DNA of 51,452 bases, taken from a virus. The stretch spans positions 1 through 51,452 of IMG/VR virus record IMGVR_UViG_3300045241_000033; one strand, given 5' to 3'. Shown here in pieces: positions 1 through 50,685 of this stretch (within the stretch, counting starts at the first letter, position 1; every line of letters starts with the position of its first letter). A model generated the notes under the pieces. That model made no database searches, was not told the origin of the DNA, and saw only the letters and a program-made list of their open reading frames with translations. Made by a program: the position numbers and the translations under genes.

Positions 1-307
1 CTTCGTCCATCGAGCCGAGCACGAAGATCGAGCTGACGGAGAGGTTGTTGTACGTGACCGGCTCGCCTGCCTTGTTCGTGCCGTCGTTGCGGTCGAACTT
101 ACCCTTCAGGACGACGATGTCGTTCTTCGCGACCTTGACGTGCTCGTGCGAGTCCCAGAGCGTTGCGCTCACCTTGATCGCGCTGCGGCCGAATCCGGCC
201 TGGCTCACGACGATGTTGCGGATGTCCTGCCCGGACTTGGTCGTGTTCTCGTTGGGCTCGAACTCCACGACGCCGACGACAGTGCGGTACGTTGCTTCAG
301 ATGCCAA
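1..307 (-). CDS. ssb: Single-stranded DNA-binding protein, C-terminus cut by contig end
   Basis: This is the N-terminal ~102 codons of an SSB whose complete copy lies at 49722-50102. The protein would coat ssDNA during phage replication and recombination through an OB fold. It starts with TTG (305-307), preceded by an AGAGGAGA ribosome binding site. The acidic tail seen in the complete copy lies beyond the contig end. It differs from the right-hand copy by a few, mostly silent, substitutions. It sits directly after the PD-(D/E)XK nuclease gene in the leftward DNA-metabolism operon. Confidence 0.85.
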   Translation of the reverse strand, partial: MASEATYRTVVGVVEFEPNENTTKSGQDIRNIVVSQAGFGRSAIKVSATLWDSHEHVKVAKNDIVVLKGKFDRNDGTNKAGEPVTYNNLSVSSIFVLGSMDE

Positions 308-319
308 GTGTTGTCTCCT

Positions 320-718
320 CTAAGTGGATTGGTAGGCGGGGACGTACGCCTCGCGATAGAGCCGTACGAAGTGACCCCAGGACATGCGAACGATTTCTTC
401 CGTGTAGTGATCCACGAATCTCCGACCGGCCAGGTCACCGAGCGCGAGATAGTCGCGCACGAACATCTGGACGCAGTCGCGCCCGTTGCGCTTCGCTTCC
501 TTCACTGCGAGCACGGGGGGAAGCCCGGCCTTCGCTGCGTTCTCGACGGCCTGCTCCCAGTACGAGGTCAGGAAGGTGTACTTCTTGACGTACTTGATCT
601 CCAGGCCGACGCGGAGGCCTACGCAGTCGGGCGTGTCCGTGCCGGTCGGGCCGGATCGTTCCCCGCCCAGCTCACGGCACTTCTCCCTCTCAACTCTCTT
701 CCAGGGTTTATCCGCCAT
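320..718 (-). CDS. PD-(D/E)XK-type nuclease, left variant
   Basis: Small nuclease of about 132 residues. The visible active-site pattern is PD at residues 30-31 followed by LEIKY with E40 and K42, the hallmark of the PD-(D/E)XK fold. The size and the position between the primase-helicase and SSB genes suggest a Holliday-junction-resolvase-like or replication-linked endonuclease, but the substrate is inferred. The chosen ATG (716-718) overlaps the stop of the upstream gene by 11 bases; an in-frame GTG-type start 10 codons upstream is possible. The C-terminal third (near 345-460) differs completely from the copy at 50115-50504, including three extra codons here, while the catalytic region is nearly identical. 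Confidence 0.7.
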   Translation of the reverse strand: MADKPWKRVEREKCRELGGERSGPTGTDTPDCVGLRVGLEIKYVKKYTFLTSYWEQAVENAAKAGLPPVLAVKEAKRNGRDCVQMFVRDYLALGDLAGRRFVDHYTEEIVRMSWGHFVRLYREAYVPAYQST

Positions 719-899
719 AGCGACCGCGCCGCTCGAACTCACGCGCATACTTCTCGTCGTCCTTCAGACCGTCCACCTCGCGCGCAAGCAGCTCGAAGAA
801 CGTAAGAACTCTCCGCTGACGAAGCCAGAGCCAGCGCCAATCACGTTTAGTGTGGGAGACGCTAGCCAAGTAGCTCGGCCAGCCCTTCGTCGGTAACAC
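708..899 (-). CDS. Small hypothetical protein
   Basis: 63-residue basic protein with a tryptophan-rich N-terminal half (two WLW-like clusters) and a charged C-terminal half ending in an arginine/glycine stretch. Function not recognised. It starts with GTG, overlaps the preceding zinc-ribbon gene by 38 bases and the nuclease gene by 11 bases, and has no strong ribosome binding site, so a shorter form is possible. An identical copy exists at 50494-50685, so the reading frame is intact in both contig ends. Confidence 0.5.
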   Translation of the reverse strand: MLPTKGWPSYLASVSHTKRDWRWLWLRQRRVLTFFELLAREVDGLKDDEKYAREFERRGRYGG

Positions 900-2849: not shown

Positions 2850-3286
2850 TTCGTTTCCTCCTGTCGGAACGCCGGGAACACGGCCGCCTCTTTGCCGAGG
2901 CGCGTGAGCACCTTCTCGGTGACTTTGTCCCAGCACTTGTCGCACTGGTTGTAACGCTCGGCCTTGTCATCTATGTAGACGCTGCCGGAGGGCTTCCCCC
3001 GCTTCGTCCAGATGTCGATGAACGTCAGGCCCGCGTTGTCGAGCGTGTCGCGGATGTACTGCACCTCGGCCTGAACCGAGATCGGGTCTTCGCACTGCCC
3101 CGTCCAGGGGTTGTGCGGGTTCGTGCGCGCCGATGAGATCATCAGCGTGAGGCCTGCGCGGTGCATCCGGCGCATGTTCTCCACGAAGCGCGGCATGAAC
3201 GTGGTCGGCCGCTCGGGCCACATAGCCGGGACGGCCGTGCCGTCCCAGTCCACGATGACCGTGTGGACAAGCTTAGACGGGGTCAC
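2846..3286 (-). CDS. HAD-superfamily phosphatase-like protein
   Basis: 146 residues. The N-terminal DWDGT (residues 13-17) is the HAD motif I with the nucleophile aspartate. A serine-rich SSAR segment near residue 51 fits motif II, a lysine in the KRGKP stretch fits motif III, and YIDDKAE near residue 104 fits motif IV. Phage HAD proteins of this kind are usually polynucleotide kinase 3'-phosphatase-like or nucleotidase-like; the substrate cannot be told here. GTG start, overlapping the upstream nucleotide hydrolase gene by 14 bases, which supports a role in nucleotide metabolism. Confidence 0.75.
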   Translation of the reverse strand: MTPSKLVHTVIVDWDGTAVPAMWPERPTTFMPRFVENMRRMHRAGLTLMISSARTNPHNPWTGQCEDPISVQAEVQYIRDTLDNAGLTFIDIWTKRGKPSGSVYIDDKAERYNQCDKCWDKVTEKVLTRLGKEAAVFPAFRQEETN

Positions 3287-3794
3287 ACCAGGGCTCCGTG
3301 AAGGCGGGCGCTTCGTGCAGGCCCTCGTGTCCCTTGGGAATCTCGCAGTACCACTTCCGATCCGGGGACATGATCGGGCAGATGTTGTCGAAGGCGTCGT
3401 CCTGCAGGTCTAGTACCCCAGGTCGGGCACAGGGTGCCGCCGTCTCCAGTTTCGCCTTGACGTACTCCGCGCCGTTGACGTTGAAGAAGATGCCAGCGGC
3501 GTGATCCTCGTCGGTCTCGCCTTCGAGCCACAGCTCGAAGTGGCGTGCGGCTGACTCCTGGAACCGCTCGTACTCGGCCATGCCCTCAGCGAGCTGCCAG
3601 TTGCGGGGCTCGCCGGGCTTGCGTGTGTTGTCGTATTTCGCGGCGGCCTTCGACAGGTGCTCGGCCCAGCGGCGGAACATCGGGCCCGGACGGATCAGGA
3701 GGAAATTGATCTTCCCCTCCGTCGTGTCGCGCACCATGCCGGAGTCGAACTGCTGCCGGTTGCCGGAGTCCTTGACCTCGAACTCGTTGCTCAA
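3273..3794 (-). CDS. dATP/dGTP diphosphohydrolase-like protein
   Basis: 173 residues. The N-terminal part has the RDTTEGKINFLLI, KYD...NW and RHFELW...ETDEDHAAG pattern that I associate with the phage dATP/dGTP diphosphohydrolase N-terminal family (formerly DUF5664), with the EDH motif near residues 116-118. Such enzymes remove dATP or dGTP and shape the nucleotide pool. The C-terminal ~60 residues carry four cysteines that may bind zinc. TTG start coupled by a TTGA overlap to the upstream gene. No PurZ-like gene was found, so a modified-base pathway is not supported. Confidence 0.6.
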   Translation of the reverse strand: MSNEFEVKDSGNRQQFDSGMVRDTTEGKINFLLIRPGPMFRRWAEHLSKAAAKYDNTRKPGEPRNWQLAEGMAEYERFQESAARHFELWLEGETDEDHAAGIFFNVNGAEYVKAKLETAAPCARPGVLDLQDDAFDNICPIMSPDRKWYCEIPKGHEGLHEAPAFTEPWCDPV

Positions 3795-4012
3795 GTGAGG
3801 TCGCGCCTCTCCGACTTGGGGACGCCCGCGGCTTTCAGCTTGTCATCCAGCAGGCTCCACACGGCGAACGTGTCGCGGCCCGGCTTGGAGAAGTTTCCGC
3901 CTAGAACCTTCGCGACGGCAAGCGCCTCTGTCCGGTCGAGAACGAGAGTGACGGTCTCGATGGGCGGCTCTACCGGCACGGGCTTACGTTGCTGCACTGT
4001 TACGGTTGCCAA
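3791..4012 (-). CDS. Small hypothetical protein after the polymerase gene
   Basis: 73-residue protein, function not recognised. It has a valine/proline-rich N-terminus, then a helix with a conserved-looking LVLDRTEALAVAKVL segment. The TTG start (4010-4012) lies 29 bases inside the end of the polymerase C-terminal gene, and the stop overlaps the next TTG as TTGA, so it is embedded in the operon on both sides. It probably has a small accessory role in replication or nucleotide metabolism; this is inference from position only. Confidence 0.6.
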   Translation of the reverse strand: MATVTVQQRKPVPVEPPIETVTLVLDRTEALAVAKVLGGNFSKPGRDTFAVWSLLDDKLKAAGVPKSERRDLT

Positions 4013-4775
4013 CTGATTTGCTCCATTCGTCGTAGTCGATTTTGTCGGCCCATGACGTCAGTGCGATCTCGTGATCGACGTCGATGGGGACGATCTCGTG
4101 TACATGCTCGAAGCCCCGGCGCATGAACACCGGCATCAGCCGGTTCAGCACGGGCAGCTCGCCCGTGGGGCCGTCGAGGATGATCTCGTCGTGTACGACC
4201 GAGACCATCTTCGTCTTCCAGTCTGCGGCCGTCGCGTGCTCGTGGACGTTCAGCAGTGCACGCTTCATGATCCCGGCGGCGCTGCCCTGGATGAGCTTGT
4301 TGAGCATCTTGTGCTCACCGAACTCCTCCATGTGCAGGTGCCGTCCGTCGATGCCGCGCAGGTATCCGCGCTTGGCGGTGACGCGCTTAACGTCGTCCTG
4401 CAGGATCGACACGAACGGGAAGTTCTTGTGGAACGTGCGGATCATCGCCTTAGCGTCGGCGGCGGTGCCGCCGAACTGCAGCTGGATCGTCTTCATGCCC
4501 CCGCCGTACATCAGCGAGAGGAACATGATCTTCCACTTCGTGCGCTCTTCCTTCGAAACGTCGGTCTGTCCGGTGACAAGCTGGGCGACCGCGGTGTACG
4601 GGTCGTAGCCCGCGCGGATGCGCGCAGCGAACTCGTCGTGCCCGAGCTTCGAGGCGAAGTACGCCGCGAGGCGGGGCTCGATGGATGCGTAGTCGAAGAA
4701 GGAAAAGGCCCCCCGCTTCGGCACGACCGCACGCTTCACGGTCGTGTCGTCGCGGGGGATGTTCTGCCAGTTCAT
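3984..4775 (-). CDS. DNA polymerase I-type, C-terminal half (palm/fingers)
   Basis: 263-residue gene product containing only the catalytic core end of a family A polymerase. It begins MNWQNIPR, which is the second half of the TGRxSSS...QNIP motif. Motif A is FDYASIEPR with D28; motif B is the O-helix R78-x-K80 ... F...MYGG to residue 92; motif C is VVHDEI with H195, D196 and E197. All catalytic carboxylates are present. The partner half with exonuclease and thumb is encoded at 6160-7275, four genes upstream. The ATG is coupled to the preceding stop by a TAATG overlap. The two polypeptides presumably associate into one polymerase that replicates phage DNA. Confidence 0.88.
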   Translation of the reverse strand: MNWQNIPRDDTTVKRAVVPKRGAFSFFDYASIEPRLAAYFASKLGHDEFAARIRAGYDPYTAVAQLVTGQTDVSKEERTKWKIMFLSLMYGGGMKTIQLQFGGTAADAKAMIRTFHKNFPFVSILQDDVKRVTAKRGYLRGIDGRHLHMEEFGEHKMLNKLIQGSAAGIMKRALLNVHEHATAADWKTKMVSVVHDEIILDGPTGELPVLNRLMPVFMRRGFEHVHEIVPIDVDHEIALTSWADKIDYDEWSKSVGNRNSAAT

Positions 4776-5086
4776 TAGCCGGTCACGATCTTGATGACTG
4801 GCTTAGATGCTTTCTCCGCCTGGAGCAGCTTCAGGAAGGTGTGCTCCTCGTTCAGTTGCTCGATGAGGATCGGATCCATGACGTAGCGCCAGACGCCCGT
4901 GCCCGCGTAGCGCGCGGTCGTCCCGCAGGTGCAGCCGTACTCCGGGAAGTTGAAGTCCTCCTCGTAGCCGTAGTCGTCGTACGAGTCAGGCGTGACGTCG
5001 TAGTCGTGCAGCCTGCACGACCACTCCCGGTCTTCGCGGTACTTCAGCCGGTAGCTGCCATAGCGCACCCCCGGTACGGGGTGCAT
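4775..5086 (-). CDS. Hypothetical protein inserted between polymerase halves (1)
   Basis: 103 residues, tyrosine- and aspartate-rich. Cysteines occur at about residue 24 and in a CTC pair near residue 52, with acidic YDDYGYEED between; a metal site is possible but not demonstrable. The C-terminal ~40 residues look helical. It starts at an ATG fused to the upstream stop (TGATG) and its own stop is fused to the polymerase C-half start (TAATG), so all three are translationally coupled. Not recognised as any homing endonuclease. It may be a subunit or linker factor of the split polymerase, which is inference. Confidence 0.65.
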   Translation of the reverse strand: MHPVPGVRYGSYRLKYREDREWSCRLHDYDVTPDSYDDYGYEEDFNFPEYGCTCGTTARYAGTGVWRYVMDPILIEQLNEEHTFLKLLQAEKASKPVIKIVTG

Positions 5087-5292
5087 CAGTCGATCCAGAC
5101 GACGATAGTCTTACCGCCGTGTCCGTGTATCGCGAGCAGGTCGTCCATGGAGGCGTAGATCGCCGTCGAGCTGTGCTTCGTGCGCCAACGCAGGACGGCG
5201 GTTCCGTCGGAGAACTCGACGCCGTCGGCGATGACACCCGTGCCGGAGATTCCGGTCTCGTCTTCGAGCCGGTTCAGGGCGAAGCGGAGCAT
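5086..5292 (-). CDS. Small conserved actinophage protein between polymerase halves (2)
   Basis: 68 residues. The pattern GTGVIADGVEFSDGT, a central RW, and the C-terminal IHGHGGKTIVVWID strongly resemble a family of small proteins found beside replication genes in many actinobacteriophages; I recognise the pattern but know no function. It is compact and probably a beta-barrel-like fold. ATG start 2 bases after the upstream TAG; the stop overlaps the next ATG as TGATG. Confidence 0.75.
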   Translation of the reverse strand: MLRFALNRLEDETGISGTGVIADGVEFSDGTAVLRWRTKHSSTAIYASMDDLLAIHGHGGKTIVVWID

Positions 5293-5294
5293 CG

Positions 5295-5981
5295 CTAGTC
5301 GAGCCCGGAGTCGTCAGAACTCAGCGTGATGCCGAGTGCTTCGGCACTGCCGGGCATGCTGATCTTCACCTTCGGCGTGTCGAGGGCGTCACGCGCGTCC
5401 TGCGCGTGGCCGATCAGCTCGGCATCCTCATACGCCTGACGGAACGCTTCGGACGCGTCATCGTCCGGCCCTGCGACCGGCACGATCATCGACTGCGGGA
5501 CGTTGTCGATGAGGACGTTGCCCATGATGTCCGTGACGGTGAACTTCGCCTCGGACTCGATCTGCGCCATACGCTCGTCCTGGATCTCCTGCAGCTCTGC
5601 AAGCTCGGCCTCCGCGATGGTGCGGGCCTCGTTGTACGCGGCAGCCTGCTCGCGGTTCTCGATGCGCCGCGCCTTGGACGTGCGCGTACGACGCTCCTGG
5701 CGCTCCTTGCGCCGGTTCTTGCGGCTCGTCGGCTGGGCCGGGCCCTTGATCTTGCGGGCCTGCTTCTTCAGCTTCGCGGCCATGCGGCCGACCACGGGGA
5801 ATGCTTCGGGATGTAGCGCGACCTGGCCCATGAAGACCGCGAGCTGTTCGTAGGACGCTTTCTCCTCGTCCGTCAGTACGACCAGCGTCTCGGCCTCATG
5901 GGCGCGGACGGTCACGTCTGCTGAGGCCCCGAGCAGGGCGGCCTGCTCGGGCGTCAACAGGATCTGTACTAGCTGGGTCAC
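5295..5981 (-). CDS. Basic-middle hypothetical protein between polymerase halves (3)
   Basis: 228 residues. An acidic/helical N-terminal region is followed by a strongly basic segment (about residues 70-105, dense in lysine and arginine), a long alanine/glutamate helix, and an acidic C-terminus. The basic block suggests nucleic acid binding. The GTG start (5979-5981) overlaps the upstream stop as GTGA; a longer frame with an upstream ATG would cut through the neighbouring gene and was not chosen. No endonuclease motif of the HNH, GIY-YIG or LAGLIDADG type is visible. Function unknown. Confidence 0.65.
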   Translation of the reverse strand: MTQLVQILLTPEQAALLGASADVTVRAHEAETLVVLTDEEKASYEQLAVFMGQVALHPEAFPVVGRMAAKLKKQARKIKGPAQPTSRKNRRKERQERRTRTSKARRIENREQAAAYNEARTIAEAELAELQEIQDERMAQIESEAKFTVTDIMGNVLIDNVPQSMIVPVAGPDDDASEAFRQAYEDAELIGHAQDARDALDTPKVKISMPGSAEALGITLSSDDSGLD

Positions 5982-6151
5982 ACGACCTCGTTCTCGAAGG
6001 CCGCGAAGATCGCTGCGCGCATCGTCTTGGTCTCGGGAAGAGCGGAATTGTCGGTGGCGCGCAGGTAGTGCCGCGCGTCCTCGATGGAGAGGCGCAGCAC
6101 GACCTCTTTCTCGACCGGCTCGACGGTTCGAAGCTCGGAGAGAATCTTCAA
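5978..6151 (-). CDS. Small hypothetical protein between polymerase halves (4)
   Basis: 57-residue protein that starts with TTG (6149-6151) eight bases after the stop of the polymerase N-terminal gene. A GGAGG ribosome binding site overlaps that stop region, and the gene ends in a GTGA overlap with the next gene. Composition is ordinary, with an N-terminal VEKEVVLRL strand and a C-terminal helix. Not recognised. The clean ribosome binding site and coupling argue that it is real despite its size. Confidence 0.6.
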   Translation of the reverse strand: MKILSELRTVEPVEKEVVLRLSIEDARHYLRATDNSALPETKTMRAAIFAAFENEVV

Positions 6152-6159
6152 GGTGCCTC

Positions 6160-7275
6160 CTAGTTGTTGGATGCGGCGCTGGAGGACATGCGTCCTGTGC
6201 GCGCTGCGTCATCGTTGAAGTTGGGATGGACGTATCCATCGCGCTGCTCTTTCTTCAGCGTGACGAGGTACGTCGTGTGGATCTTCTTGTCGGAGCGGTA
6301 CTGCAGCAACGCCGCAGCCAGCTCGTCGTCGATGTCCCGCAGGACGTCAACGGCGGTGGATTCCAGCTTCACGCCGCGCTTTGCGAACGCTTCCGTGATC
6401 TGGACGGGCGACTGCGGGTTCAGGTCTGGGTTGCCGGTGAGCTTGACGATCTTCTCCCAGCCCTCCATGACCTTGACGCCGTACTCCGACGTGATGCAGT
6501 CGAGGTACGGGATGTCGAGCTTGAAGCTGTCGGCCTCCATGTCGAGTAGGACGAGCTTGAGCTGCATGAACTCGCGGTACAAGTCCTGGAGCCGGGCGTC
6601 CTGCAACTGCAGCTCCGGCAGGAGTTTCTCGTACAGCATGAGCGTGAAATCGGTGTCCTTGAGCGCGTACGGGACGAGCGCCTCCCGCGGGAGCAGGTGA
6701 TACCCGTCGTCCTTCTTGAGCTTCAGCTTGCGGCGTACGGCGCTGAGGTGGTGCTCCTCTTTCGGGACGCGCTTGAACGTGCCCTTGTTCGGGCCGGTCT
6801 TGATCTCGACCTCGATGGTGTCGTCCACCTTGAGCACGGTCGCAGCCAGGTGCTTCAGGCCCTTGCGTCCGTTCTCATCGAGCAGGACGTAGATCGTCTG
6901 CGTGTCGTGGATCTCTTTCTGCTGGATGTCCGCCAGCGTGAAGACGCCCGCGAGGATCAGCTTCTGCAGGTCGAATTTCGCGTTGTGGAAGACCCAGCGC
7001 GTGGCGAGCTGCATCAGGATGAGGCGCAGCTCCTGCACGCGCGTAGCGCGGCCGGGAACCTCGGGGTCGAGGTCGAAGTAGGCGTTGCGGAGGGAGCCGT
7101 CGAGACCACGCCAGGACAGCGTGGCCGCGAACGCGGAATCGTAGAACCCTACGCCCGATGTCTCCGTGTCAACCGCAACGGTCATGCTCTCCGGTGACAC
7201 ATCTGCGTCTGCGCGGAAACGCTTGTACCCCCACTCGGCCCAGGCGTTCCAGCGGTACTCCTTAAACCGCGGCAA
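6160..7275 (-). CDS. DNA polymerase I-type, N-terminal half (3'-5' exonuclease, thumb)
   Basis: 371 residues. Proofreading exonuclease motifs are complete: DTE at 36-38, HNAKFD at 97-102, and YALKDTDF at about 203-210. The thumb and the start of the palm follow, and the protein stops after TGRMSSSAASNN, in the middle of the motif that normally continues to QNIP. The continuation is the separate gene at 3984-4775. No intein or clear group I intron junction is visible. The TTG start overlaps the HNH gene by 14 bases and has no good ribosome binding site, so the exact N-terminus is uncertain. Confidence 0.88.
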   Translation of the reverse strand: MPRFKEYRWNAWAEWGYKRFRADADVSPESMTVAVDTETSGVGFYDSAFAATLSWRGLDGSLRNAYFDLDPEVPGRATRVQELRLILMQLATRWVFHNAKFDLQKLILAGVFTLADIQQKEIHDTQTIYVLLDENGRKGLKHLAATVLKVDDTIEVEIKTGPNKGTFKRVPKEEHHLSAVRRKLKLKKDDGYHLLPREALVPYALKDTDFTLMLYEKLLPELQLQDARLQDLYREFMQLKLVLLDMEADSFKLDIPYLDCITSEYGVKVMEGWEKIVKLTGNPDLNPQSPVQITEAFAKRGVKLESTAVDVLRDIDDELAAALLQYRSDKKIHTTYLVTLKKEQRDGYVHPNFNDDAARTGRMSSSAASNN

Positions 7276-7582
7276 GTTCGTACCGCAGGTGCTCGCCGTT
7301 GGAGGCGAACACCATCAGGTTGTCGGGATCGTTGTTCGCTCGGTCAGCGTCGATGTGATGCACGACCTCGCCGGGCCGCAGAGTGCGGCCGAGCTTCTGC
7401 TCCATGACGAGGCGGTGCTCGTAGACGCGTTTGCCGTCCCGGCCGCACTTCACCTCGACGTAGCCGGTCACTGGGTTGACGTAGCGCCCGCCTTCCCAGC
7501 TCGGGTGCCGGTCTCCAGAGTTAGCTTCAGAGTTCTTACGTCGATGCTCTGCGGACTGCGGGCGGCCTTTCGGCCAAGGCAC
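7262..7582 (-). CDS. HNH endonuclease
   Basis: 106 residues. The pattern YEHRLVMEQKLGR, EVVHHIDADRANNDPDNL is the H-N-H core of the HNH_3-type phage and homing endonucleases; an N-terminal NUMOD-like basic segment precedes it. It lies directly upstream of the split polymerase N-half, with a 14-base overlap. Free-standing HNH genes often sit beside the gene they target, here plausibly the polymerase. GTG start immediately after the ERF gene. It could also be a remnant of the event that split the polymerase, which is inference. Confidence 0.85.
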   Translation of the reverse strand: MPWPKGRPQSAEHRRKNSEANSGDRHPSWEGGRYVNPVTGYVEVKCGRDGKRVYEHRLVMEQKLGRTLRPGEVVHHIDADRANNDPDNLMVFASNGEHLRYELAAV

Positions 7583-7583
7583 G

Positions 7584-8165
7584 TTAGGCCGCGCCGTGCT
7601 CTTCGAGCAGGCGCTGCAGCGTGGCCTTGTCGGACAGCTCGCTCGCCTGGATGCCGAAGAACTTCGCTACCTCGGCTGCGGTCGGCTTGGCCTTGTCGAG
7701 CCCGACCTTCGCGATGTCGAACGTCTTCTTCTTCAGCTCGGACTCGGTCGGATCCTTCTTCGGGCCCCGGCTGCTCGCGGAGTTGCCGTCGTCATCGGTC
7801 TCCGTGATGAGGCCGAGGATCGCGCCGATGGCGTAGCGGCGCGCGTACGTGATCGCGCTGCCCTGCCCCTGCGGCGTGGCCTTGTCGAGCGTGAGGAGCA
7901 TGACGGAAGCCTCTGCCTCGCCGGTCGGTACGTGCGTGAGGCGCGTGACCAACGTCGCCACCGGGCCCTCGCTGGAGTCCACGAAGCTCGGCTCCTGTGA
8001 CAGCAGGACGTCGTTCGCCTGCAGCACCGGCAGGGCTGTGCTGAGTAGGGCGTCGAGCGTGACGTAGTCGTTCTTGAAGTGCGGGTTCTGCTTGTCCTTC
8101 TCCAGCTTCGGCACAGCCTGCTGCACTGCGAGCAGTGCTTCGGCCAGCGTCTTTGCAGCTGCCAA
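7584..8165 (-). CDS. erf: ERF-family single-strand annealing protein
   Basis: 193 residues. The N-terminal half has the KLEKDKQNPHFKNDYVTLDAL pattern and the later GQGSAITYARRYAI segment, both typical of the ERF (essential recombination function) annealing family. It would pair complementary ssDNA in phage recombination, probably with the exonuclease encoded at 8310-9176. The TTG start (8163-8165) has an AGGAGG six bases upstream. The frame could open further upstream but those codons lack a ribosome binding site. The C-terminal ~45 residues look like a separate helical SAP-like or DNA-binding tail. Confidence 0.8.
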   Translation of the reverse strand: MAAAKTLAEALLAVQQAVPKLEKDKQNPHFKNDYVTLDALLSTALPVLQANDVLLSQEPSFVDSSEGPVATLVTRLTHVPTGEAEASVMLLTLDKATPQGQGSAITYARRYAIGAILGLITETDDDGNSASSRGPKKDPTESELKKKTFDIAKVGLDKAKPTAAEVAKFFGIQASELSDKATLQRLLEEHGAA

Positions 8166-8193
8166 GTGAGTCCTCCTGTAGTTGAAAGATTTG

Positions 8194-8208
8194 TCGGGCG
8201 ACGCCCGA
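8194..8208. other. Short perfect inverted repeat in ERF leader
   Basis: TCGGGC and GCCCGA separated by three bases, between the exonuclease and ERF genes. It may be an operator or an attenuating hairpin. The 8166-8309 gap holds no ORF with a ribosome binding site. Confidence 0.4.
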
Positions 8209-8297
8209 TGAGCCGGGTCGTTCACGCCGTCGCGCTATCCGGGGGCCCAGTTCGCGGCGATCAGTCCGCTACTACAGAGCCCTGCACTCGGTCGCCC

Positions 8298-15456: not shown

Positions 15457-15599
15457 GACGCGATCTCCTTGACGAGCACCTCTTTGATGTGGATGTCAGG
15501 GAGCGCCTCGTCCCAACGATGCGGGGCAGGGACGCCCAACGCTTCCCACCACTCGCGGTCGTCGTCCGTCGTCACTTCAAGGATGACGAGCGTGGTCAT
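15453..15599 (-). CDS. Small acidic hypothetical protein
   Basis: 48 residues: a beta strand start (MTTLVILEVTTDDD), a WWEALGVP segment and an amphipathic end. ATG overlaps the HNH gene stop as ATGA and is preceded by a CCCCGCCAGAGAGGAG start-associated sequence that lies inside the HNH coding end. That suggests the HNH gene arrived later and now reads through this leader. Confidence 0.55.
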   Translation of the reverse strand: MTTLVILEVTTDDDREWWEALGVPAPHRWDEALPDIHIKEVLVKEIAS

Positions 15600-16042
15600 A
15601 CGGGTGTCTCCTCTCTGGCGGGGGTGTCATTCACGTCGAGCCCCGGAAGGAACTCGCGCTTTCGTCTTAGCTCGTTATGCCTGTGCCGGTGCTCAGACGC
15701 AGACATCAGCTCTAGGTTCTCGATGCGATTGTCGAGCCGGTCACAGTTCTTGTGGTGAACGTGCTCGTCTGTGCGGAGGGGGCGCTTGAGATGCCGCGCC
15801 ATCACCGCACGGTGCTCCAAGATGTACCGGCGGGTGACCGCCATCTCGGGGAACGGCTCTGCCGAGGCGAGCACAAACGCGTATCCTTGCGTTGCGCTGA
15901 TGTAGCGTCCGCCGCGCCAGTTCTTCCGATTGTGTCCTGCGATGAAGCGCACGGGCCGACCTTTCTTCCAGCCAGCCCGTTTGTCGGTCTTAGTGGCGAT
16001 GGGTGCGGGTAGACCGCACCCGCACTCACAACACTTCGACAC
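15596..16042 (-). CDS. HNH endonuclease with zinc-binding N-terminus
   Basis: 148 residues. N-terminal CCECGCG suggests a zinc-binding or AP2/NUMOD-like lead segment; the core is EHRAVMARHLKRPL, EHVHHKNCDRLDNRIENL, a clear HNH_3 motif. Probable free-standing homing endonuclease. GTG start 17 bases inside the flavoprotein gene. The last ten codons are the start-associated leader of the following gene, which fits insertion of the endonuclease between two older genes. Confidence 0.85.
   Translation of the reverse strand: MSKCCECGCGLPAPIATKTDKRAGWKKGRPVRFIAGHNRKNWRGGRYISATQGYAFVLASAEPFPEMAVTRRYILEHRAVMARHLKRPLRTDEHVHHKNCDRLDNRIENLELMSASEHRHRHNELRRKREFLPGLDVNDTPAREETPV
15607..15623 (-). promoter_or_regulatory. 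Start-associated sequence 4 (inside HNH coding end)
   Basis: Minus strand CCCCGCCAGAGAGGAGA; serves the ATG at 15599 while being translated as the C-terminus of the HNH protein. Confidence 0.6.
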
Positions 16043-17069
16043 GATCCTTCTCCGTCGTCGTGTCGGTCAGACCCGGCAGGTACTCCCGCCGGATCCACTG
16101 GAACGCCTGCGTGCCCTCACCGAACGCAACGGTGATGCCGCCGGTCGCACCGGCCCGTACGTCACCCGCGACGAAGACGCCCGGAATGGACGACTCCTGT
16201 GGGTACGGCGAACGCTCCAGGTACGTGATGCCGTCGTCGCCCGTGTGGTAAAGCGGCCAGTCCTCACGCGGCACGTCGTAGCCTGTGAGGATGTAGCCCT
16301 CGGCGGTCTTGGCCCCGCTGAACCAGCCGGTAGCCGGTACGCCGCCGATGAACACGTAGGTGTGGTCGGGTCGCAGTCCGACCTTGCCCTCGTGCACCGC
16401 GATGGACACGCGGGACAGAGTCTCGTCGCCGTGCGCCGTCGTGATCTCGCCCTGCACCACGGTGATCCACGGCGTCTGATGGCGGGAGCCACGTTCGGCC
16501 GCGAGTCGTTGCCGCAGGTACATGCTTGTGGTCTCGGCGAGCGGGGAACGCGTCAGGATCGTCACTCGACGTGCGCCCTTGTCGGCCAGTGCGAGCGCCA
16601 GCTGCGCGCAGGAGTTTCCTCCTCCGACCAGCATGACGTGCTGACCCGCGTGCTCGTGCAGCGTCGTGGCATCGCACGCGTACTCGACGCCCCGCCCCTC
16701 GTACGGTCGGAGCGCGTCGAGCTTCGGGGTTGTCTCGCCCACAGCGATGATGACGCTGCGTGCGTACAGGTTCCGATCGGCTGTGGCCACCCACAGCTTG
16801 TCACCCATTCGCATGAGCGCGGTGACACGCTGGTCTGTCCACAACTCGGCCCCGAACTTACGAGCCTGCGCCGCGAGACCATCGAACAGCGCAGGCCCAC
16901 TGATGCCCTCGGGGAATCCGGGCACGTTCTCGATGAGCGGGGACTGATACGCCCTACCGCCGAGCGTGCCGGATGCTTCCAGCACGACGACGGACAGGCC
17001 CTCAGATCCCGCCTTGACTGCAGCGGTCAGGCCCGCAGGCCCGCCGCCGATTATGGCGAGGTCGTACAC
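16026..17069 (-). CDS. Thioredoxin-reductase-like FAD/NAD(P) oxidoreductase, CxxC lost
   Basis: 347 residues. FAD-binding GGGPAG at residues 9-14, a central NAD(P) site with VGGGNSCAQLALALAD, and the C-terminal FAD motif VFVAGDVRAGATGG match the two-dinucleotide-domain fold of thioredoxin reductases. The place where the redox CxxC should be reads GVEYACDATT with a single cysteine, so classical disulfide exchange is unlikely; it may reduce a ferredoxin, flavodoxin or quinone-like partner instead. GTG start directly after the upstream gene; HNH gene follows. Unusual cargo for a phage of this size. Fold certain, role uncertain. Confidence 0.8.
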   Translation of the reverse strand: MYDLAIIGGGPAGLTAAVKAGSEGLSVVVLEASGTLGGRAYQSPLIENVPGFPEGISGPALFDGLAAQARKFGAELWTDQRVTALMRMGDKLWVATADRNLYARSVIIAVGETTPKLDALRPYEGRGVEYACDATTLHEHAGQHVMLVGGGNSCAQLALALADKGARRVTILTRSPLAETTSMYLRQRLAAERGSRHQTPWITVVQGEITTAHGDETLSRVSIAVHEGKVGLRPDHTYVFIGGVPATGWFSGAKTAEGYILTGYDVPREDWPLYHTGDDGITYLERSPYPQESSIPGVFVAGDVRAGATGGITVAFGEGTQAFQWIRREYLPGLTDTTTEKDRVEVL

Positions 17070-49721: not shown

Positions 49722-50102
49722 CTAGTACGGGATGTCGTCGTCGTCTTCGACCGGAGTCGAAGTGCGGCGGCTGCTGCCCTCGTCGTCCCGGACGCCTTCG
49801 TCCATCGAGCCGAGCACGAAGATCGAGCTGACGGAGAGGTTGTTGTACGTGACCGGCTCGCCTGCCTTGTTCGTGCCGTCGTTGCGGTCGAACTTGCCCT
49901 TCAGCACGACGATGTCGTTCTTCGCGACCTTGACGTGCTCGTGCGAGTCCCAGAGCGTTGCGCTCACCTTGATAGCGCTGCGGCCGAATCCGGCCTGGCT
50001 CACGACGATGTTGCGGATGTCCTGCCCGGACTTGGTCGTGTTCTCGTTGGGCTCGAACTCCACGACGCCGACGACGGTGCGGTACGTTGCTTCAGATGCC
50101 AA
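49722..50102 (-). CDS. ssb: Single-stranded DNA-binding protein (complete copy)
   Basis: 126 residues. OB-fold-type core (TYRTVVGVVEFEP, SAIKVSATLWDSHEHV, IVVLKGKF, VTYNNLSVSSIFVLG) and an acidic tail ending DDDDIPY, the usual SSB tip for partner binding. TTG start with AGAGGAGA upstream, between the nuclease and a small basic protein. A slightly different, truncated copy begins the window. Confidence 0.9.
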   Translation of the reverse strand: MASEATYRTVVGVVEFEPNENTTKSGQDIRNIVVSQAGFGRSAIKVSATLWDSHEHVKVAKNDIVVLKGKFDRNDGTNKAGEPVTYNNLSVSSIFVLGSMDEGVRDDEGSSRRTSTPVEDDDDIPY

Positions 50103-50114
50103 GTGTTTTCTCCT

Positions 50115-50504
50115 CTAAGTGGATTGGTAGGCGGGGTCGTACGCTTTTCGGTACGCCCGCACGAAGTGGCCCCACGACATGCGAATCTCCGTTTCCTCCC
50201 ACCTCGGGGGAATAACGGCGTCGATCATGGCGTAGTAGTCGCGCGTGAACATCTGGACGCAGTCGCGTCCTCCGCGCTTCGCTTCCTTGATTGCGAGCAC
50301 GGGGGGAAGCCCGGCCTTCGCTGCGTTCTCGACGGCCTGCTCCCAGTACGAGGTCAGGAAGGTGTACTTCTTGACGTACTTGATCTCCAGACCGACGCGG
50401 AGGCCTACGCAGTCGGGCGTGTCCGTGCCGGTCGGGCCGGAGCGTTCCCCGCCCAGCACGCGGCACTTCTCCCTCTCAACCCTCTTCCAGGGTTTATCCG
50501 CCAT
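50115..50504 (-). CDS. PD-(D/E)XK-type nuclease, right variant
   Basis: 129 residues. Same catalytic part as the copy at 320-718 (PD...LEIKY) with a few substitutions, but a different segment near the C-terminus (MIDAVIPPRWEETEI instead of LGDLAGRRFVDHYTEE). Both forms are open and keep the terminal SWGHFVR...PAYQST. Two alleles of one gene in the population. Confidence 0.7.
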   Translation of the reverse strand: MADKPWKRVEREKCRVLGGERSGPTGTDTPDCVGLRVGLEIKYVKKYTFLTSYWEQAVENAAKAGLPPVLAIKEAKRGGRDCVQMFTRDYYAMIDAVIPPRWEETEIRMSWGHFVRAYRKAYDPAYQST

Positions 50505-50685
50505 AGCGACCGCGCCGCTCGAACTCACGCGCATACTTCTCGTCGTCCTTCAGACCGTCCACCTCGCGCGCAAGCAGCTCGAAGAACGTAAGAACTCTCC
50601 GCTGACGAAGCCAGAGCCAGCGCCAATCACGTTTAGTGTGGGAGACGCTAGCCAAGTAGCTCGGCCAGCCCTTCGTCGGTAACAC
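50494..50685 (-). CDS. Small hypothetical protein (duplicate copy)
   Basis: Identical to the 63-residue product at 708-899. Confidence 0.5.
   Translation of the reverse strand: MLPTKGWPSYLASVSHTKRDWRWLWLRQRRVLTFFELLAREVDGLKDDEKYAREFERRGRYGG

Follow-up and report, generated by a model that had tools for sequence, protein, structure and literature searches.

A family A DNA polymerase encoded as two genes, broken at a classical homing-intron site, in a clade of uncultured phages

The window, by which we mean the whole stretch of DNA analysed (51,452 nt, IMG/VR record IMGVR_UViG_3300045241_000033), carries on its minus strand, in this order, an ERF recombinase gene, an HNH_3/NUMOD3 endonuclease gene, a gene for the N-terminal half of a DNA polymerase (N-half), four small genes, a gene for the C-terminal half (C-half) and a gene of a dATP/dGTP diphosphohydrolase family. 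The features are as follows.

7584-8225 (-), ERF recombinase gene, upstream of the HNH_3/NUMOD3 gene
7262..7582 (-), HNH_3/NUMOD3 endonuclease gene (PF13392, 9.2e-12; NUMOD3, 0.0063), overlapping the start of the N-half
6160..7275 (-), polymerase N-half, TTG start, 371 aa: 3'-5' exonuclease, thumb and first part of the palm, ending in TGRMSSSAASNN-TAG
4773..6162 (-), interruption, from the N-half stop to the C-half start codon, at the boundary that corresponds to residues 674|675 of E. coli Pol I
5978..6151 (-), spacer gene 1, 57 aa, TTG start after AGGAGG, no family
5295..5981 (-), spacer gene 2, 228 aa, GTG start, a basic protein
5086..5292 (-), spacer gene 3, 68 aa, phrog_7499 (2e-25), a general phage family of unknown function
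4775..5086 (-), spacer gene 4, 103 aa, no family, its stop overlapping the C-half start (TAATG)
3984..4775 (-), polymerase C-half, ATG start, 263 aa: rest of the palm and the fingers, with motifs A, B and C
3273..3794 (-), gene of the dATP/dGTP diphosphohydrolase N-terminal family (PF18909, 8.8e-8), downstream of the C-half

A sequence-only reading of this DNA had proposed that a Pol I-type polymerase is split here, and both its coordinates and its reading of the motif were correct. The N-half matches PF01612 (8.7e-13) and PF00476 positions 8-124, and the C-half matches PF00476 positions 127-380 (1.9e-36), so that the two halves tile one domain. Catalytic motif 1 (TGRxSS) is in the N-half; QNIP and motifs A, B and C are in the C-half, which opens ATG-AAC-TGG-CAG-AAC (MNWQNIPR). 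The exonuclease and motifs 1, A, B and C of a family A DNA polymerase (PF00476 with PF01612) are therefore all present, spread over two chains. The residues on which activity depends are invariant throughout the clade described below, these being DTE (36-38), HNxKFD (97-102) and Y203/D207 for the exonuclease in the N-half and D28, R78, K82, Y90-G91 and H195-D196-E197 for the polymerase in the C-half, as expected from the earlier claim that one polymerase with both active sites intact is encoded as two proteins.

In Foldseek searches the N-half and the C-half aligned with different, complementary regions of Pol I large fragments and of family A polymerases from phages, the best match for the N-half being 7pbk, DpoZ of vibriophage phiVC8, and the C-half finding Pol I large fragments at 8e-15. 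AF2 models of each half as a single chain had pLDDT of 89 (N-half) and 87 (C-half), with low confidence mainly at N-half residues 358-371, at C-half residues 1-6 and 13-15, and at the outer termini. The low-confidence cut ends would fit a strand pair that forms only when the two chains meet. The 7pbk match and the PF18909 neighbour prompted us to consider a Z-genome DpoZ, which was ruled out by the absence of PurZ (PF00709) from all 14 clade contigs, several of them fragments, in scans with positive controls. ORFs resembling the PF18909 neighbour by eye are also found downstream of the C-half in three other clade members (L002, L003 and L004).

IMG/VR was scanned with profiles of both halves and every fetched locus was checked for the break, a search that the sequence-only reading had suggested. 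The same break was found in 13 further distinct contigs, and in one duplicate (L037), giving 14 members with the window. This recurrence excludes chance and sequencing error. The window comes from one metagenomic contig whose ends overlap imperfectly, which might suggest an assembly or sequencing artefact, but that explanation is refuted by 13 other contigs with different spacers and its probability is negligible. Nearly all of the other fetched polymerases are single open frames, a few fetched loci being truncated or matching one profile only; two are separated, L079 by an intron and MEP401 at a different break. In a scan of genome contigs for a host no relative exceeded 32% identity or lay near the clade, isolate phages gave none above 34%, and the only DNA-level match in phage records was an unrelated 106-nt stretch.

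The aligned halves of the clade members have 34-68% identity to those of the window. In a tree of 45 rows all 14 split polymerases fall together in a single clade (SH-aLRT 100), and when the split or unsplit label is scored over 43 polymerases one change is enough to explain it. On this phylogeny the split is old and inherited, having arisen once in the ancestor of the clade. The 11 contigs checked for an intact PolA copy, several of them fragments, had none, and each has exactly two PF00476 pieces, covering about 3-125 and 126-381; in these contigs two separate ORFs jointly cover one protein, as in other genes in pieces. In the four members for which dS was measurable (L033-L036) dN/dS is about 0.07-0.15 in both halves, and both are under purifying selection there. 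In the same four the QNIPR at the start of the C-half has synonymous variation with a constant protein, which indicates that the first C-half codons are translated.

The position of the break is exact to the codon. When aligned with the Klenow fragment (E. coli residue numbers being the Klenow chain position plus 323) the alignment of the N-half profile runs to residue 672 and that of the C-half opens at Asn675, and the break is at Pro674|Asn675. In all 14 members the C-half has a start codon, then Asn, then xQNIP. Site 674 is where the HNH-encoding group I introns of the phages SPO1, SP82, Bastille and Pf-WMP3 are inserted, as described in the I-PfoP3I paper (PMC3428280). In SPO1 gene 31 the junction is GAGCCT, an 882-nt intron, then AACGCTCAG, which on joining gives SSNEP-NAQQFP. 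A group I intron of 250 nt also occupies site 674 in L079 (6784-7033; RF00028, 81.6 bits; folding z -5.1), whose polymerase belongs to another lineage. Both junctions, CCT|intron|AAC in SPO1 and CCT|intron|AAT in L079, coincide exactly with the clade break. The clade polymerase is thus interrupted exactly between codons 674 and 675, at the codon boundary of a classical homing-intron site, a point that the sequence-only reading had missed. The L079 intron ends in ATG, and its exon 2 alone would open ATG-AAT.

It has to be asked whether the 1.4 kb, with its several genes, is a group I intron that still splices and so restores a continuous polymerase. The break is precisely at the SPO1-type site, an I-HmuI-like HNH_3/NUMOD3 gene adjoins the N-half in the window, and the last base before Asn675 is G in 11 of 14 members, including the window. 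However L004, L019 and L022 do not have this G, and the 5' splice U at the end of codon 674 is present in only two members, the other 12 being without it; codon 674 in the window is GCA, so that the window has A where group I splicing calls for a 5' exon U, together with the G at the intron end. Our first Rfam scans were weak negatives, because a scan of the whole locus also missed the L079 intron, which was found by the same kind of scan once a short stretch was supplied. With length matched, a 1,461-nt stretch of the window has no match to the RF00028 ribozyme core and an equal-length L079 stretch gives 7.6e-21; the L003 spacer likewise has no match, but at 175 nt it is shorter than the L079 intron (250 nt). 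In addition the 1,384-nt gap in the window is almost wholly coding, with four closely packed ORFs, and its contents turn over between members. We reject an active intron in the window on the RF00028 result with its length-matched control, in agreement with the sequence-only reading, and regard splicing as very unlikely.

The earlier claim that no intein is present is also borne out, as the blocks of a split intein are absent, the N-half continuing for five to six residues beyond SS and the C-half having a single start codon ahead of Asn675. Joining of the halves by some such route, be it a split intein, translational bypass or a frameshift fusion, has to be considered in relation to the start of the C-half. 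It had been claimed that each half has its own start signal, and this holds for start codons, both halves having one, but there is no purine-rich Shine-Dalgarno sequence before the C-half in the window. There the C-half ATG overlaps the preceding stop (TAATG), and with no Shine-Dalgarno sequence the C-half looks translationally coupled. The first C-half codons in the 14 members are ATG (5), GTG (4), ATC (2), TTG (1), CTG (1) and ATA (1), all within the table-11 initiator set and all followed by Asn675. In four members the start must be a near-cognate codon if QNIP is to be kept: CTG in L002 (11291), ATA in L004 (1615) and ATC in both L019 and L022 (6001 in each). L002 has no alternative usable start upstream of motif A. 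L004 (AAGGAGGT) and L022 (AAGGAG) have good Shine-Dalgarno sites, and in L022 an in-frame stop directly precedes the ATC. These near-cognate starts are unusual; an assembly error might account for any one of them, but they occur in four independent contigs.

The four members without an ordinary C-half start codon, and L022 in particular, give some encouragement to the idea of joining: an endonuclease-like ORF in L022 (5662-6003; phrog_5046, 4e-8; weak LAGLIDADG_3) is in the same frame as the C-half, with a single TAG between them, directly before the ATC. Nevertheless every first C-half codon is a recognised initiator, there is no room for inteins, as the halves end within five to six residues of the common motif, bypass would need to cross 175 to 2,198 nt of unrelated sequence, and, as the upstream ORF differs among members, frameshifting would fuse the C-half to unrelated proteins. 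We consider covalent joining by any of these routes to be highly improbable.

The spacers range from 175 to 2,198 nt across the clade and their contents are diverse. That of L022 has a metallophosphatase gene and the homing-endonuclease-like ORF, those of L033-L036 have a family 2 glycosyltransferase gene (4294-5061 in L033), and others have small ORFs without known function. In L033 and L034 the glycosyltransferase gene overlaps both flanks, with ATGA/GTGA-type overlaps. Homologues of spacer gene 2 are present in the spacers of L002, L018 and L019 (leave-one-out HMM E of 2e-34 to 8e-24), with L003 marginal at 0.032, and a wider scan with the single sequence gave no matches. The suggestion that the spacer genes are dedicated partners of the polymerase does not hold in general: contents differ between members, only the 5295-5981 protein is common, and that within a subgroup, and gene 3 belongs to a general family. 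The remark that an HNH gene abuts the N-half is accurate, the HNH_3/NUMOD3 gene in fact overlapping the N-half start, but such a gene adjoins the polymerase in the window only, among clade members, and we reject it as a conserved companion of the split. There is a second HNH_3 gene in the window (15596-16042), adjoining a gene for a thioredoxin-reductase-like flavoprotein (16026-17069; Pyr_redox_2, 7.9e-23).

Several phages replicate with a host polymerase, and the split polymerase could on that precedent be a decaying or accessory relic in phages that use the host replicase, the more so as the break falls inside a catalytic motif. Against this are the invariance of the catalytic residues over the clade, the low dN/dS in both halves, the persistence of the halves through deep divergence, and their location with AAA_25/Toprim ATPase and ERF recombinase genes. 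We think a relic unlikely.

The explanation that we favour, and think probably right, is that of a family A polymerase in two genes, the halves assembling non-covalently, derived from an old mobile-element insertion at site 674. Both halves would be made as separate proteins from a polycistronic mRNA, with translational coupling serving the second, and the two chains would come together non-covalently as the phage replicase. The break arose once, at codon 674|675 in the ancestor of this uncultured phage clade, and the likeliest route is insertion of an intron or homing endonuclease, with splicing lost once exon 2 had gained a start codon at the junction and the gap later colonised by unrelated genes. 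This origin is suggested by the position, by the endonuclease-like ORF before the C-half in L022 and by precedent, with most weight on position because no clade member keeps a detectable intron core; the endonuclease genes near the break (the window HNH gene and the L022 ORF) are not conserved in the clade. An unlikely variant is an obligate multi-subunit polymerase, in which the C-half is made limiting by its coupled or non-AUG starts and the spacer protein 5295-5981 is a third subunit, such as a DNA-binding or processivity factor.

With regard to known systems, the polymerases of SPO1, SP82, Bastille (with I-HmuI, I-HmuII and I-BasI) and Pf-WMP3 (with I-PfoP3I) resemble those of the clade in being family A enzymes interrupted codon-exactly at site 674. 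In the SPO1-type genes a self-splicing intron restores one chain, whereas the clade has no detectable ribozyme, lacks the 5' U in 12 of 14 members and has ordinary genes in the gap. A split at this motif of a Pol I-type enzyme had seemed new to the sequence-only reading, and in the open-access literature (subscription papers being outside the search) we found no report of this clade or of a 674|675 break as a two-gene polymerase. However a split PolA with another break has been published for the OM43 phages MEP401 and MEP402 and relatives, of the Zobellviridae (PMC10580990), the authors leaving open whether the interruption is an intron. There too a family A polymerase is in two ORFs with a small gene of unknown function between, but the break is about 20 residues later, after PNLQNF and before motif A, and the spacer is a single 78-codon gene, in contrast to the variable spacers of the clade. 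MEP401 does not group with the split clade in the tree, and we reject it as the same split, the break being between QNI and motif A in a different lineage. LUZ24-like phages have a family A polymerase over several ORFs (parts I, II and III), but the break between parts I and II sets the exonuclease apart from the polymerase and that between II and III is an intron at another place, and with break points that differ they too are rejected as the same split.

For function the best precedents are elsewhere. In the T4-like Aeromonas phages 25 and 44RR the replicative polymerase is in two polypeptides, gp43A and gp43B, that co-purify, with the split in phage 25 linked to a homing endonuclease (PMC2988022); these are family B and the clade polymerase is family A. 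NrdA of phage Aeh1 is split by insertion of mobE at a functionally critical place and is still fully functional (PMC2988022), although it is a ribonucleotide reductase rather than a polymerase and the endonuclease gene is still in place. By analogy with Aeh1 NrdA and phage 25 gp43A/B the two halves may be expected to work as a split enzyme.

If this is correct, the whole of a diverse phage clade has a family A replicative polymerase permanently divided into two proteins, with the cut in the catalytic palm at a codon targeted by homing introns. It would bring together polymerase architecture, genes in pieces and the homing sites of introns, which are usually studied apart, and it makes testable whether a mobile intron can turn into a lasting boundary between genes for an essential enzyme. 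The 674|675 boundary would offer a natural split point for conditional or split-reporter polymerases, and the near-cognate C-half starts are a further oddity open to test.

Two minor observations may be added. The ends of the window (1-749 and 49796-50535) overlap at 96-99% identity with a 9-nt offset change, which suggests that the genome is about 49.8 kb long and either circular or terminally redundant. The position of E. coli Phe762 influences nucleotide discrimination, and its equivalent, placed by spacing from the motif B Lys at C-half residue 86 (window 4518-4520), is occupied by Leu in the window group, with Phe in L023 and L033-L036.
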